From positions 1-64,000 of the forward strand of contig JABTUC010000001.1 of assembly GCA_015075545.1 (NCBI GenBank): 64,000 bases of DNA, given 5' to 3'. Numbering within the stretch: position 1 is the stretch's first letter; the number at the start of each line of letters is the position of its first letter. Of the stretch, positions 24,162-30,715 are shown piece by piece. A program made the translations under genes and the position numbers. This DNA is from Ideonella sp. GTDB taxonomy: Bacteria; Pseudomonadota; Gammaproteobacteria; Burkholderiales; Burkholderiaceae_C. The notes under the pieces were generated by a model. That model was not told where the DNA came from. It was given only the letters and a program-made list of their open reading frames with translations, and searched no databases.

Positions 24162-24165
<4 letters not shown>
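23572..24165 (-). CDS. rsmD: 16S rRNA (guanine966-N2)-methyltransferase RsmD
   Basis: 197 aa. It methylates G966 in 30S subunits. The N-terminal [10 protein letters not shown] and [16 protein letters not shown] are family signatures, [13 protein letters not shown] is the SAM site and DPPF the catalytic motif. The start is a GTG overlapping the hisF stop by 4 bp (GTGA), so rsmD is attached to the his operon where hisI would be expected. rsmD-coaD-ferredoxin is the usual order for these three. Confidence 0.93.
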
Positions 24166-24938
<773 letters not shown>

Positions 24939-24963
24939 CGCGCGGCAGCCCCGGCGGTGGCGG

Positions 24964-25710
24964 TCAGCCCTCGCCGTTGAGCTCGTCGGCGCGCTTCTGC
25001 GCGGCGGCGAAGTCGAGCGCGCCGCTGTAGATGGCGCGACCGCAGATCACGCCGCGGATGCCCTCGTCCTCGCGCGCGCACAGCGCTTCGATGTCGGCCA
25101 TGCCGCTCAGGCCGCCGGAGGCGAAGACGGGAATCGTCAGCGCCTGCGCCAGCTTGACGGTGGCCTCGACGTTGATGCCGGTGAGCATGCCGTCGCGGCC
25201 GATGTCGGTGTAGATCACCGCGTCGACGCCGTAGTCCTCGAACTTCTTCGCCAGGTCGATCACCTCGTGGCCGGTGAGCTTGCTCCAGCCGTCGGTGGCG
25301 ACCTTGCCGTCCTTGGCATCGAGACCGACGATCACGTGGCCACCGAAGGCGCTGCAGGCGTCTTTCATGAAGCCCGGGTTCTTGACCGCCGCGGTGCCGA
25401 TGATCACGTAGGCGAGGCCGTCATCGAGAAAGCGCTCGATGGTGTCGAGGTCGCGCAGCCCCCCGCCGAGCTGCACCGGGATGCGATCGCCGACCTCGCG
25501 CACGACGGCCTTGACCGCCGCCTCGTTGACCGGCCTGCCGGCGAACGCGCCGTTCAGGTCTACCAGGTGCAGCCGTCGCGCGCCGGCGTCGAGCCAGCGC
25601 CGCGCCATGGCCGCCGGGCTGTCGCCAAAATGGGTGACGGCCTTCATGTTGCCTTGTTCCAGACGGACGCACTTGCCGTCTTTCAGGTCGATCGCCGGAA
25701 TCAGCAGCAT
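24964..25710 (-). CDS. hisA: Phosphoribosylformimino-AICAR-P isomerase HisA
   Basis: 248 aa (beta/alpha)8 isomerase producing PRFAR. Catalytic Asp in [14 protein letters not shown] and Asp in [25 protein letters not shown] is conserved. It is separated from hisH by 98 bp in which nothing is recognised. Confidence 0.98.
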
Positions 25711-25808
25711 GGCCGGGTGTCGAGCGGATGCGCGCTCTCGCGTCGTGGGGGTGGTTCGTCTTGCCGGTGCCGGACCTTACAGCGGCGGTGCGATCGACCG
25801 CGAAGGCC

Positions 25809-26459
25809 TCAGGGCTTCCAGGCAAGGAAGTTCCGGTAGAGGGTCAGACCGTGGGTGGCGCTCTTCTCTGGGTGGAACTGCGTGGCGAAAATGTTATCCC
25901 GCGCCACGGCACAGGTAAAGCTGCCGCCGTAGTCGGCGGACGCCGCGCTGTGGCATTCGTCCGACGGTTTCGCGTAATAGCTGTGCAGAAAGTAGAACCA
26001 GGCGGCGTCGGGCACGTCGCGCCACATCGGGTGCGAGCGATCGCGCTGCAGCACCTGGTTCCAGCCCATCTGCGGCAGCTTGTATCGGCTGCCGTCGCCT
26101 TGCAGCCGCCCTTCGAGCCGGAAGCGCAGCACCCGCCCGGGGATCAGCCCGAGCCCCGCCGTGTCCTGCTCCTCGCTGTGGTCGAGCAGCATCTGCATGC
26201 CCACGCAAACGCCGAGCAGCGGCCTGCTGGCGGCGGCTTGCAGCACCGCCTCGCGCAGCCCGCCGCGCTGCAGTTCGCGCATGCAGTCGCGCATCGCGCC
26301 CTGCCCCGGCAGCACCACCCGCTCGGCGGCCAGCACCCGGTCGGGGTCGGCGCTCAGCACCACCTCGAAGTCGCTGCCGCTCGCGGCATGCCGCAGCGCC
26401 TGCGTCACCGAGCGCAGGTTGCCCATGCCGTGGTCGACGACCGCCACGATGCGTGCCAT
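25809..26459 (-). CDS. hisH: Imidazole glycerol phosphate synthase glutaminase subunit HisH
   Basis: 216 aa class I glutamine amidotransferase feeding ammonia to HisF. Nucleophile Cys in [11 protein letters not shown], and the His/Glu of the triad in TQFHPEKS. The N-terminus [12 protein letters not shown] and [11 protein letters not shown] are as in the family. Confidence 0.97.
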
Positions 26460-26490
26460 CGCGATCCTCAGCGTCGGGCCAGACGGCGGC

Positions 26491-27141
26491 TCACAGGCTG
26501 CCCTTGGTCGACGGCACCGCGCCGGCGGCGCGCGGGTCGACCGCCAGCGCCATGCGCAGCGCGCGCGCGAACGCCTTGAACACGGTTTCGCACTGGTGGT
26601 GCGCGTTGTCGCCGTGCAGGTTGTCGATGTGCAGCGTCACCATCGCGTGGTTGGCGAAGCCCTGGAAGAACTCGTAGACGAGCTGGGTGTCGAAGCCGCC
26701 GACCATCGCGGCCTTGAACGGCACGCGCATGTGCAGCCCGGGCCGGCCGGAGAAATCGACCACCACGCGCGACAGCGCTTCGTCGAGCGGCACGTAGGCG
26801 TGGCCGTAGCGCGTGATGCCGGCCTTGTCGCCCACCGCCTGCGCCACCGCCATGCCCAGCGTGATGCCGACGTCCTCGACCAGGTGGTGGCCGTCGATGT
26901 GCAGGTCGCCGCGGGCCTGGATGTCGAGGTCGACCAGGCCGTGGCGCGCCACCTGGTCGAGCATGTGGTCGAAGAAGCCGATGCCGGTGGCCAGCCGCGC
27001 CTGGCCGCGGCCGTCGAGGGCGACGCGCACACGGATCTGCGTCTCCTTGGTGTTGCGCTCGACTTCGGCGCGGCGCGCGGCGGCGGGCTTCGCAGCGCGT
27101 GGCGCGGCGGGCTTGGCGGCGGCACGGCGGGTTGGACTCAT
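26491..27141 (-). CDS. hisB: Imidazoleglycerol-phosphate dehydratase HisB
   Basis: 216 aa monofunctional IGP dehydratase (no phosphatase domain). Mn-binding motifs [11 protein letters not shown] and [12 protein letters not shown] are intact. The first ~25 residues are an Ala/Pro/Lys-rich tail with repeats of AAKPAA, absent from most homologues (usual length about 195). The start at 27141 is one base from the hisC stop; a start nearer the conserved [11 protein letters not shown] cannot be excluded, but no in-frame ATG is there. Confidence 0.96.
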
Positions 27142-27142
27142 C

Positions 27143-28237
27143 TCACAGACTCGCTTTCAGCGCATCGATCATCAGCGCGTTCTCCTGCGGCGTGCCCACC
27201 GTGATGCGCAGGCATTGCGCCAGCAGCGGGTGCAGCGCGGAGACGTTCTTCACCAGCACGCCGCGTGCCTTCATGCCTTCGAAGGTGCGCGCGGCGTCGC
27301 TCACGCGCAGCAGGATCATGTTGGCCTCGCTCGGAAAGGCGCGCACGCCGGGCAGCGAACGCAGCGTCGCCTGCAGCCGCTGCCGCTCGTCGCGGATCAT
27401 CGCGGCCTGGCGCGCGTACTCGTCGGCATGCTCGAGCGCGAACAGCGTCGCCTCGGCATTCAGCACGCTCACGTTGTACGGCGCTCGCACCTTGTCGACC
27501 TCGTCGATCAGCGCGGCCTTGCCGCACAGGTAGCCCAGCCGCACGCCGGCCAGCCCGAACTTGCTCAGCGTGCGCATCACCAGCACGTGGTCGTGCGCGG
27601 GCATGCGCGGCAGCCAGCTGCGCGACGAGAACGGCTGGTAGGCCTCGTCGAACACCACCAGCCCGTGCTGCGCGCCGACTGCCGCGACGATGGCGTCGAT
27701 CACCGCGTCGTCCCACAGGTTGGCCGTGGGGTTGTTGGGGTAGGCGATGTAGGTCAGCGCGGGCCGCTCGCGCTCGATCGCCGCCAGCATGGCAGCGGCG
27801 TCGAGCTCGAACTCGCTCGTCAGCGGCACGCCGACGAAGCGCAGGCCGCGCAGCTTGGCCGACAGCCGGTACAGCACGAAGCCGGGCTCCGGCGCGAGGA
27901 TCGAAGCGCCCGGCACGTTGCACGCCACCGACAGCAGATCGATCAGCTCGTCGGAGCCGTTGCCGAGCATCAGCTTGCAGCCCGCGGGCAGCTCGACGAA
28001 GCGCGCCAGCGCGGCAGCGACGTCGGCCGCGCACTGCCCGGGGTAGCGGTTGATCGCCACCCGCCCCAGCCTCGCCCCCAGCGCGCGCTGCAGCGGCTCG
28101 GGCAGACGAAATGGGTTCTCCATCGCGTCGAGCTTGACCAGCCCCGCGCTCGGCTGGATCGCGTAGCCGTGGGTCGACTGCACGTCCTGGCGGATGACGC
28201 GCGCCAGGCGCTGCGCAAGCGGGGTCGGTTCAGCCAT
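27143..28237 (-). CDS. hisC: Histidinol-phosphate aminotransferase HisC
   Basis: 364 aa fold-type I PLP enzyme. The PLP Lys is in [14 protein letters not shown]; also present are [19 protein letters not shown] (phosphate binding), [10 protein letters not shown] and the Asp/Tyr pair in [10 protein letters not shown]. It starts inside the 3' end of hisD-GNAT (8 bp overlap). Confidence 0.97.
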
Positions 28238-30050
28238 GATTCACGCCAGCCAGCGGCAGCTCCATGCGGTGTTCGTTGTCTTCGTCGACCTCGCCGGTAT
28301 AGCGAAAGCCCAGCTTCTCGTAGAACGGACCGGCGTGGCCCGGCAGCATCTGGTGCGACAGAGCAACGGACGCCACGCCGAGCCGGCGCGCCTCGTCGAT
28401 CACCCAGCGCATCGTGCGCGCGCCATAGCCCTTGCGCTGCTGGCCGGCATCGATCAGCAGCCGCCACACGTATAGCTGATCGGCTGGGTCTTCCGGGTCG
28501 CGCCGCGCGTCCCACAGCAACAGCAGGCCGACCGGCACTTCGCCGTCGTAGATCGCCAGCGGTCGTCCCGGCGCGCGCACCGACGCCTGCGCGAGCGACT
28601 TGGCCACCGACCCCACGAGCCCTTGCTGCTCGGGGGCGACGGCGAGGTCGAGCAGGCGGTCGACGTTGGCGTCGGTCACCGGGCGCAGGTGGAAGCCGTC
28701 GCCTTCGTCCTGCGGCAGCGACGCGTCGAGCCGCAGCTGCGCAGCGCGCGCGTGCGCGTGCAGGCCTTCGCCCAGCGCCAGCTCGGCGGCGATCGGGCCG
28801 AGCGCGCGGGCGCCGCGCGCGCTCACCTCGATCAGGCTCGAGCGCTTGACGAAGTCGTACACGCCCAGCGGCGAGGCGAAGCGCGCGCTGCCCGAGGTGG
28901 GCAGCACGTGGTTGGGCCCCGCGCAGTAGTCGCCCAGGCTCTCGCTGGTGTACGCGCCGAGGAAGATCGCGCCGGCGTGCTCGAGCAGCGGCTCCCAGCG
29001 CTGCGGCGCGCGCGCGCTGATCTCCAGGTGCTCCGGCGCGATGCGGTTGGCGATCGCGCAGGCCTCCTCCATCGAACGCGTGCGGATCAGCGCGCCGCGG
29101 CCCTCGAGCGACGCGCGGATCACCTCGCGCCGCGGCAGCCCGGGCAGCAGCCGCGCCATCGCCGAAGCCACCGCGTCGAGGTACGCCGCGTCGGGCGACA
29201 GCAGAACAGCCTGCGCGAGCTCGTCGTGCTCGGCCTGGCTGAAGAGATCCATCGCCACCCAGCCGGCCTCGGTGCTGCCGTCGGCGAGCACCAGGATCTC
29301 GCTCGGGCCGGCGACCATGTCGATGCCGACCGCGCCGAACACCCGCCGCTTGGCGCTGGCCACGTAGGCGTTGCCCGGGCCGACGATCTTGTCGACGCGC
29401 GGCACGGCGGCCGTGCCGTAGGCGAGCGCGGCGATCGCCTGCGCGCCGCCGATCGCGAACACGCGGTGCACGCCGGCCAGGTGCGCGGCCGCCAGCACGA
29501 GCGGGTTGCGCTGCGGAGCACCGCCTTCGCGCGCCGGCACCGGCACCGCCATCACGATCTCGCCGACGCCGGCCACCTGCGCGGGGATCGCGTTCATCAG
29601 CACCGACGACGGATACGCCGCCTTGCCGCCGGGCACGTAGATGCCCACGCGGTCGAGCGGCGTCACCTTCTGGCCCAGCAGCGTGCCGTCGGCGTCGCGC
29701 ACCTGCCAGCCCTGGCAGCAGGCGCGTTGCTGGTGCTCGTGGTAGCGGCGCACGCGCGCCGCGGCAGCCTGCAGCGCGCCGCGCTGTGCGGCGCCCAGGC
29801 CTTCGAACGCGCGCTGCAGCTCGTCGCGCGCGATCTCCAGCTCGCCGACGCTGGCGGCGCGCACGCCGTCGAGCCGCGCCGTGTGCTCCAGCAGGGCGGC
29901 GTCGCCGCGCGCACGCACGTCGGCGACGATGCGCTCGACGGCCTGCTCGATGGCGCGATCGGTCTCGCCCGACCACTGCAGCACGCGCTGCAGCCGTGCG
30001 TCGAAGTCGGCCTCGGTGGTCGACAGGCGGGCGATGCGCAGCACCGTCAT
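28230..30050 (-). CDS. hisD: Histidinol dehydrogenase fused to a C-terminal GNAT acetyltransferase
   Basis: 606 aa in one uninterrupted frame; ordinary HisD is about 435. Residues 1-440 are complete HisD (histidinol to histidine, NAD, zinc): [37 protein letters not shown], zinc/catalytic residues in SQAEHDE (272-275), APEHLE (His341), [13 protein letters not shown] (Asp374) and the terminal HAHAR (431-435). A short linker (SLPQDEGDG) leads to residues 451-606, a GNAT N-acetyltransferase: [11 protein letters not shown], then [32 protein letters not shown] with the acetyl-CoA loop QxxGYG (537-543), and [11 protein letters not shown]. This GNAT resembles polyamine/diamine acetyltransferase-like proteins. 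It overlaps hisG by 4 bp and hisC by 8 bp. The acetyl acceptor is unknown. Confidence 0.95.
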
Positions 30051-30715
30051 GCGCTGCCCCTGCTCGCCGCGGCCAGCGCTTCGATCACCGGCCGTAGCGT
30101 CTCGCGCTCGAGCTTCAGCGACGCCGGATTCACCACCAGCCGGGCGCTGATGTCGATCACGCGCTCGACCTCGACCAGGTTGTTGGCCTTCAGCGTGTTG
30201 CCGGTGGACACCAGGTCGACGATGGCGTCGGCCAGGCCGGTGAGCGGCGCCAGCTCCATCGAGCCGTAGAGCTTGATGAGGTCGACGTGCACGCCCTTGT
30301 CGGCAAAGTGCTGCCGCGCGAGCTGCACGTACTTGGTGGCGACGCGGATGCGCGAGCCCTGCCGCACCGCTGCCGGATAGTCGAAGTCGGCGCGCACCGC
30401 CACGCTGAGGCGACAGCGCGCGATGCCGAGGTCGACCGGCTGGTACAGCCCCGCGGCGCCGCCCGCATGGCCCCAGGCGGCGTCGTGCTCGAGCAGCACG
30501 TCGAGGCCGACCACGCCGAGGTCGGCGCCGCCGTACTGCACGTAGGTCGGCACGTCGCTCGCGCGTACCAGCACCACGCGCAGGTCGGCGCGGTTGGTCG
30601 GCAGGATCAGCTTGCGCGAGGTCTCGGGATCCTCGAGCACCGACAGCCCCGCGCGCTGCAGCAGCGGCAGCGTCTCGTCGAAGATGCGCCCCTTCGACAG
30701 CGCCAGTGTCAGCAT
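30047..30715 (-). CDS. hisG: ATP phosphoribosyltransferase catalytic subunit, short form
   Basis: 222 aa. First, feedback-regulated step of histidine synthesis (ATP + PRPP). It is the short HisG type: [32 protein letters not shown] and the PRPP loop [16 protein letters not shown] are present, but the C-terminal ACT-like regulatory domain is absent. Short HisG needs HisZ, which is not in the window. Its stop overlaps the hisD start (ATGA). It begins 25 bp after murA. Confidence 0.97.

Follow-up and report, generated by a model that had tools for sequence, protein, structure and literature searches.

Histidinol dehydrogenase (HisD) has been described in fused form: hisD is named among the fused his genes in the available parts of two accounts (PMC1963479, PMC10138114), and in the available part of a gene-fusion survey HisD is joined only to HisIE, in HIS4 (PMC1963479). 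The accessible portion of a further account names a HisIE–HisD fusion for Bacteria and Eukarya and reports that it was not identified in Archaea (PMC11237513). The word acetyltransferase is absent from the main texts of PMC1963479 and PMC10138114. Here we analysed a window of 64,000 nucleotides from Ideonella sp. (contig JABTUC010000001.1), in which hisD continues in frame into a GNAT acetyltransferase. HisD is thereby joined to another enzyme in one chain, as it is in fungal HIS4 (hisI-hisE-hisD; PMC1963479); as far as the available text of that survey describes them, the HIS4 partners are pathway enzymes on the N-terminal side, whereas in this bacterial protein an acetyltransferase from outside the pathway is attached on the C-terminal side.

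On the acetyltransferase side, the Enterococcus faecalis spermine/spermidine acetyltransferase (2fl4/9dsb) shares with the window GNAT the common fold, a similar length and the acetyl-CoA motif, and the alignment covers residues 13–157 of the 166 that follow HisD. The window GNAT differs from it in being 27% identical, in being fused to HisD and in its own conserved R496, R516, W549 and H566. The fusion is real and conserved, and it gives a well-known enzyme a domain architecture for which we found no description in open-licence papers, where absence is not proof; the initial annotation likewise knew of no described HisD–GNAT enzyme. Searches of the same literature gave no paper on acetylhistidinol and none on Rubrivivax hisD, and protein databases may well list the architecture without comment.

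A HisD–GNAT fusion in one reading frame

The fused gene is a single 606-amino-acid open reading frame with an ATG start, in which HisD, linker and GNAT follow one another in one frame (Table 1). Its position and its overlaps with hisG and hisC were as first annotated, judged from the list of open reading frames, and both halves are complete, as claimed; the domain limits shifted slightly, with the GNAT beginning at residue 453 rather than 451 and the linker comprising 12 residues rather than about 10. One hisD match was found in the window genome, which is 85% complete. PADLOC gave no match, and an antiphage system was set aside.

Table 1 Features of the fused gene, its neighbourhood and related loci (plain coordinates refer to the window)
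Feature	Position	Strand	Basis or remark
hisD-GNAT fused gene	28230..30050	-	606 codons + stop (28230-28232); ORF and family searches
HisD part, residues 1-440	28731..30050	-	Pfam/NCBIfam matches and alignment; six compared zinc/catalytic positions kept
Linker, residues 441-452 (12 residues)	28695..28730	-	Sequence and length vary among relatives
GNAT domain, residues 453-606	28233..28694	-	Family match, sequence match to solved chains, domain model, fold search
Presumed acetyl-CoA binding motif Q538-x-x-G541-x-G543	28422..28439	-	Complete in 36/37 fused copies
H566	28353..28355	-	36/37 fused copies; other GNATs: Tyr 19/23, His 0/23
hisG	30047..30715	-	4-bp overlap with fused gene; ORF and family search
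hisC	27143..28237	-	8-bp overlap with fused gene; family search: aminotransferase class I and II
Remaining his cluster	24162..27141	-	ORFs 26491-27141, 25809-26459, 24964-25710, 24162-24938; presumably hisB, hisH, hisA, hisF from sequence and order
Positions kept in fused copies	V458, G495, R496, L511, R516, D518, L526, W549, R556, H566, Y584		Present in ≥90% of fused copies but ≤20% of the 23 other GNATs
HisD–HisC fusions	L087, L171, L172, L175, L177, L178, L179, L184, L191, L193, L195, L202, L207		Genus g119; in frame, variable linker; Pfam check for L171 only
DUF6364/PIN pair, examples	L074:2922-3579, L023:6524-7227, L086, L089, L168

Residues 29–441 match Histidinol_dh (PF00815) with an E value of 4.3e-159 and 530 bits against a cut-off of 27, which places this half in the HisD family, and TIGR00069 (hisD) gives a full-length match of 497.7 bits, about twice its cut-off of 243.8. 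In an alignment with E. coli HisD (1k75) in which aligned residues were counted by hand, Q272, H275, E340, H341, D374 and H433 are identical to E. coli Q259, H262, E326, H327, D360 and H419, which we take to be the four zinc ligands and the catalytic Glu–His pair; at these six positions, the annotation of a complete HisD with its zinc and catalytic residues is borne out. Residues 1–440 thus resemble known HisD (PF00815, TIGR00069) over the whole domain, in the position between hisG and hisC and at the six positions compared. The linker begins soon after H433, the last zinc ligand. In plain, unfused HisD (94 loci) the frame stops 2–15 residues past the point that corresponds to the end of HisD in the window, whereas the window protein has 166 residues more. 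The loop at about residues 175–205 of HisD is longer in the window, and in locus L018, from an Ideonella metagenome-assembled genome, it carries a short tandem repeat with units like NALVHGQR.

The C-terminal half belongs to the GNAT superfamily. Acetyltransf_1 (PF00583) matched residues 492–582 of the whole protein (E = 8.3e-10), and residues 441–606 alone scored 43.8 bits against a cut-off of 20.7. The model of the GNAT domain (pLDDT 88) has the GNAT fold and gave 686 fold matches at E 0.001 or better, including 3exn, 9dsb/2fl4 and PaiA (1tiq). Together with the acetyl-CoA motif, these matches uphold the earlier description of a complete GNAT with its acetyl-CoA loop. By contrast with the domain model, the full-length model, built from 8 sequences, is poor (pLDDT 62), and its HisD/GNAT orientation is not usable.

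The nearest solved chains by sequence, 2fl4 (E = 3.3e-7) and 9dsb (E = 4.1e-7), are named spermine/spermidine acetyltransferase, in keeping with the annotated resemblance to amine acetyltransferases; the identity of the nearest solved relatives is 27% or less, so the substrate cannot be read off from them. We assume that these E. faecalis proteins are kin to B. subtilis BltD. Against the NCBIfam rimI model the score was 16.6 bits, with a cut-off of 86.4, which places the domain outside RimI. Among plasmid sequences, 79 records carry relatives of the GNAT at less than 60% identity; 54 of these records are from Streptomyces, and the annotation of the 8 matches listed says no more than GNAT. A related GNAT in another family of the order (L006:1501-2766, genome G057) forms a fusion with a DUF2238 membrane protein.

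An internal translation start that would free the GNAT appears unlikely. In the window there is no start codon from ten codons before the end of HisD to codon 457, the linker holds no in-frame ATG, GTG or TTG, and the first possible internal start is a GTG at codon 458 that lacks a ribosome-binding-like stretch. In 23 of 37 fused copies (counted by hand), a HisD residue two codons short of the end of that part is encoded by ATG, and in 1 of these 23 the codon is preceded by at least four matching ribosome-binding-site bases.

Occurrence of the fusion among relatives

A scan in which each species was represented by one genome and only the GNAT part served as query returned 10 loci. Seven were in-frame HisD–GNAT fusions after hisG and before hisC, among them that of Rubrivivax rivuli KYPY4, which is a strain record and not a metagenome assembly; the other three (two Leifsonia, one Novosphingobium) had no HisD. 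At L023, one of the seven fusions, the fused gene and hisC are separated by two small genes that match the pair at locus L074. A profile of eight such GNATs was then applied to 399 genomes of the family, with at most 9 first-look candidates scored per genome here and in the class search below, and gave 48 places in 41 genomes at 1e-15. All 16 places above 180 bits are fused to HisD; they fall in 15 genomes, the window's included, one of which has two copies. None of the remaining 32 exceeds 128.4 bits, and no HisD is present at the 15 of these that were retrieved. At 1e-60, and with at most 3 candidates scored per genome, 387 of the 399 genomes gave a HisD match.

In total we collected 37 complete fused copies from 36 genomes. 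Two loci (L020, L023) that are identical in HisD to L153 and L166 were counted once, and those broken off inside HisD (L094/L100 of G236, L103 of G368) or 45 residues after it (L173 of G807) were left out. Among six sampled genomes of the window's genus, four carry the fusion (G000, G002, G004, G005), one (G003) has an unfused hisD followed by a DUF6364/PIN pair, and in the last (G001) the contig ends at HisD residue 437. In G168 and G251 the fusion lies on a more distant HisD (62–63% identity). A second, different GNAT gene of 270 amino acids sits between hisG and the fused hisD of G168 (L071:654-1466), where hisC is not next, and a match in G251 (L084) points to a second GNAT gene at the same place.

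Beyond the family, the GNAT profile found only the window at 1e-25 in 369 genomes of the class (3 of the family). At the level of the order, HisD was found at 1e-100 in 335 of the 349 genomes searched, which included 10 from the family. Among the matches listed for the full-length profile, the window scored 1167 bits and the next best, which has no tail, 882; the window alone extends beyond profile position 487 of 600, and the rows that continue past position 448 run through a stop codon, although a fusion that involves a highly diverged HisD could rank below these matches. Outside Burkholderiales, the search covered this GNAT subfamily only.

Origin and selection of the GNAT domain

Across the fused copies, 27 GNAT positions are the same in all 37 (counted by hand), and Y577 is among the residues found in 37 of 37. 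Eleven positions (Table 1) set the fused copies apart from the 23 comparison GNATs, a set in which L006 is a fusion with DUF2238 and two sequences come from Leifsonia; at six of these positions (R496, L511, R516, W549, H566 and Y584) none of the 23 has the same residue. This pattern is what would be expected of a GNAT subfamily with its own acceptor, and suggests one.

The 37 fused GNATs form one clade against the 23 others (support 100/97; 100% of 200 bootstrap trees), as 18 fused rows had in a first tree (99/95), which indicates a single origin of the domain. The GNAT is under purifying selection: dN/dS was 0.13–0.32 in all 12 pairs compared, one of which (L036/L038) involves the mixed case of genome G304 described below. 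In 9 of the 12 pairs the value exceeded that of HisD, indicating weaker constraint on the GNAT. HisD and GNAT distances are correlated, with r = 0.59 over all 37 copies and r = 0.52 over the 35 copies without G168 and G251, a value reached in none of 2,000 permutations. For the 20 copies in which all four proteins could be compared, HisG and HisC being nearly whole, the correlations were 0.44 for HisD–GNAT, 0.51 for HisD–HisG and 0.19 for HisD–HisC.

The fusion is patchy, and close relatives are without the GNAT tail. On the HisD trees, both of which comprise mainly the HisDs most like that of the window and are weakly resolved, fused copies are scattered, with 3 to 5 changes forced by well-supported branches: a tree of 146 rows, made by a quick method, required 16 changes of the GNAT label, 3 of them forced by starred branches, and a tree of 80 rows required 6 changes, 5 forced, when G001, cut off by its contig end, was counted as unfused. 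We read these data as a single gain of the GNAT, followed by inheritance in common with HisD, by repeated losses and by a measure of recombination. In G304, two HisD–GNAT copies (L036, L146) have GNATs and HisDs that disagree in kinship; L036 and L038 of G365 differ by a distance of 0.012 in the GNAT and 0.18 in HisD. Recombination could account for this discord, as could mixing in the assembly.

Plasticity of the hisD 3′ end

The C-terminal end of hisD is unusually plastic in genus g119, the genus of genome G223, in which matching coordinates also place R. rivuli (G415). Matches were present in 79 of its 81 genomes, and 73 hisD loci were classified; G797, G834 and G839, where the query range spans the GNAT, stand outside these loci, G837 has an unfused hisD and, on a different contig, a partial match extending across the GNAT, and G819, G853 and G856 are fragments. 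HisD–GNAT accounts for 23 of the 73 loci, followed by hisC in 17 and by a VapBC-like pair or part of one in 6. Another 13 encode HisD–HisC fusions. Where hisD is unfused, hisC is next in 22 loci, the VapBC-like pair in 9 and neither within range in 5, and 1 locus is cut off. Many g119 genomes also have a second, distant HisD-like gene (35–40% identity), perhaps for a HisD-related dehydrogenase with another substrate.

The HisD–HisC fusions of these close relatives are joined at the same C-terminal point of HisD as the GNAT is; the partner there is the next pathway gene, whereas in the window it is a GNAT. With 11 changes, 5 of them forced, their distribution over the HisD tree is scattered, so that they possibly arose several times, and the fusion accounts in the available parts of PMC1963479 and PMC10138114 make no mention of them. 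In one, L087, HisD runs straight into HisC, yet this locus nests with two HisD–GNAT copies on the HisD tree, so that its GNAT tail has likely been lost.

Over all 107 loci without a GNAT fusion, hisC is next in 47 (some at low identity), the DUF6364/PIN pair lies between hisD and hisC in 22, HisD–HisC fusions make up 13 and 25 show other arrangements. The members of the pair at L074 match DUF6364 and PIN, a VapBC-like toxin–antitoxin combination, and the pair also follows some fused copies; a toxin–antitoxin-like module thus sits inside a biosynthetic operon. Stand-alone GNAT genes after hisD, which the initial annotation had proposed to look for in relatives, were found downstream in none of the 107 loci (median 1.8 kb of downstream sequence; less than 0.7 kb in 3), and the reading that relatives carry hisD and GNAT as split genes was dropped.

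The patchy distribution, together with a junction that hosts other insertions and fusions, argues for an accessory rather than an essential function. Patchiness, the single origin of the GNAT and the other occupants of the junction became visible from relatives and had been absent from the initial annotation. Within one genus, the hisD end with a GNAT tail, a HisC tail, a VapBC-like pair or nothing forms a natural series of sister strains, which lets the effect of gaining or losing the fused domain be measured.

Possible roles of the tail

We propose, with a probability of about 0.6, that the tail N-acetylates small amines, that it is synthesised together with HisD and stays attached to it, and that it was acquired a single time and lost often. 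One polypeptide would then comprise a normal histidinol dehydrogenase, a short linker and an intact GNAT of its own subfamily. The joining of GNAT and hisD would have happened a single time, in an ancestral member of this Burkholderiales family; selection would then have preserved the tail in some lineages, and many others would have lost it or exchanged it by recombination. HisD would make histidine as usual, and the tail, expressed along with the his operon and kept next to HisD, would work as an independent acetyl-CoA-dependent N-acetyltransferase for a small primary amine, most plausibly neutralising or diverting an amine, histidinol or one similar to it, whose level increases while the pathway is active. 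Judged from the sequence, acetyltransferase activity of the tail is probable; we infer this catalysis, as well as a small-amine substrate and any benefit of the tether. Histidinol is attractive as the acceptor because HisD binds it and because histidinol inhibits histidyl-tRNA synthetase, but a polyamine or a foreign amine is at least as likely. As a HisD–acetyltransferase under selection in 36 sampled genomes, the fusion is a candidate chemical step or control beside the pathway.

It is possible, at somewhat less than even odds, that an ordinary polyamine-like amine or drug acetyltransferase was welded to hisD by stop loss and is co-expressed with it through a tether that is idle. The plastic hisD 3′ end in g119, with its VapBC-like pairs beside unfused hisD and its HisD–HisC fusions, agrees with such an accident, as do the spermine/spermidine acetyltransferase names of the two nearest solved relatives, the occurrence of more distant relatives on plasmids under a plain GNAT annotation and the joining of a similar GNAT to a membrane protein of the DUF2238 type. 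With an idle tether, however, occasional splitting would be expected, whereas the subfamily is never a separate gene next to hisD in the 107 loci, and no member above 180 bits lies elsewhere in the family sample, within the candidates scored per genome.

A sharper form of the small-amine explanation, which we regard as doubtful, holds that the tail acetylates histidinol (or histidine), so that HisD, or the pool of its substrate, would feed directly into a branch or safety valve. HisD acts on a primary amine, the subfamily was always joined to HisD in the family sample (16 of 16 above 180 bits), and the subfamily-only positions suggest a substrate of its own; yet most relatives do without the tail, our searches of open-licence papers met no report on acetylhistidinol, and the full-length model gives no structural sign of neighbouring sites. 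Unlikelier again is a dedicated histidinol (or histidine) N-acetyltransferase, a side branch of the pathway built into HisD in a clade of Burkholderiales; if it were so, the tail would trim the free pool of a toxic intermediate or make an N-acetylated imidazole product.

We consider it improbable that the tail is a protein acetyltransferase that tunes the pathway by acting on lysines of HisD, HisC or HisG: the fold matches do include N-terminal and ribosomal-protein acetyltransferases, but by sequence the nearest chains are named as small-amine GNATs and the rimI score lies far below its cut-off. An artefact of sequencing, assembly or gene calling, for which the incomplete window genome and the many metagenome assemblies among its relatives might speak, is refuted by those relatives, in agreement with the earlier statement that the fusion is not an assembly gap: a stop at the junction, sought in relatives for positions 28700–28740, occurs inside none of the 37 copies, which argues against a base-calling or assembly error there, and the same open frame recurs in 36 further complete copies from 35 other genomes, including the strain R. 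rivuli KYPY4.
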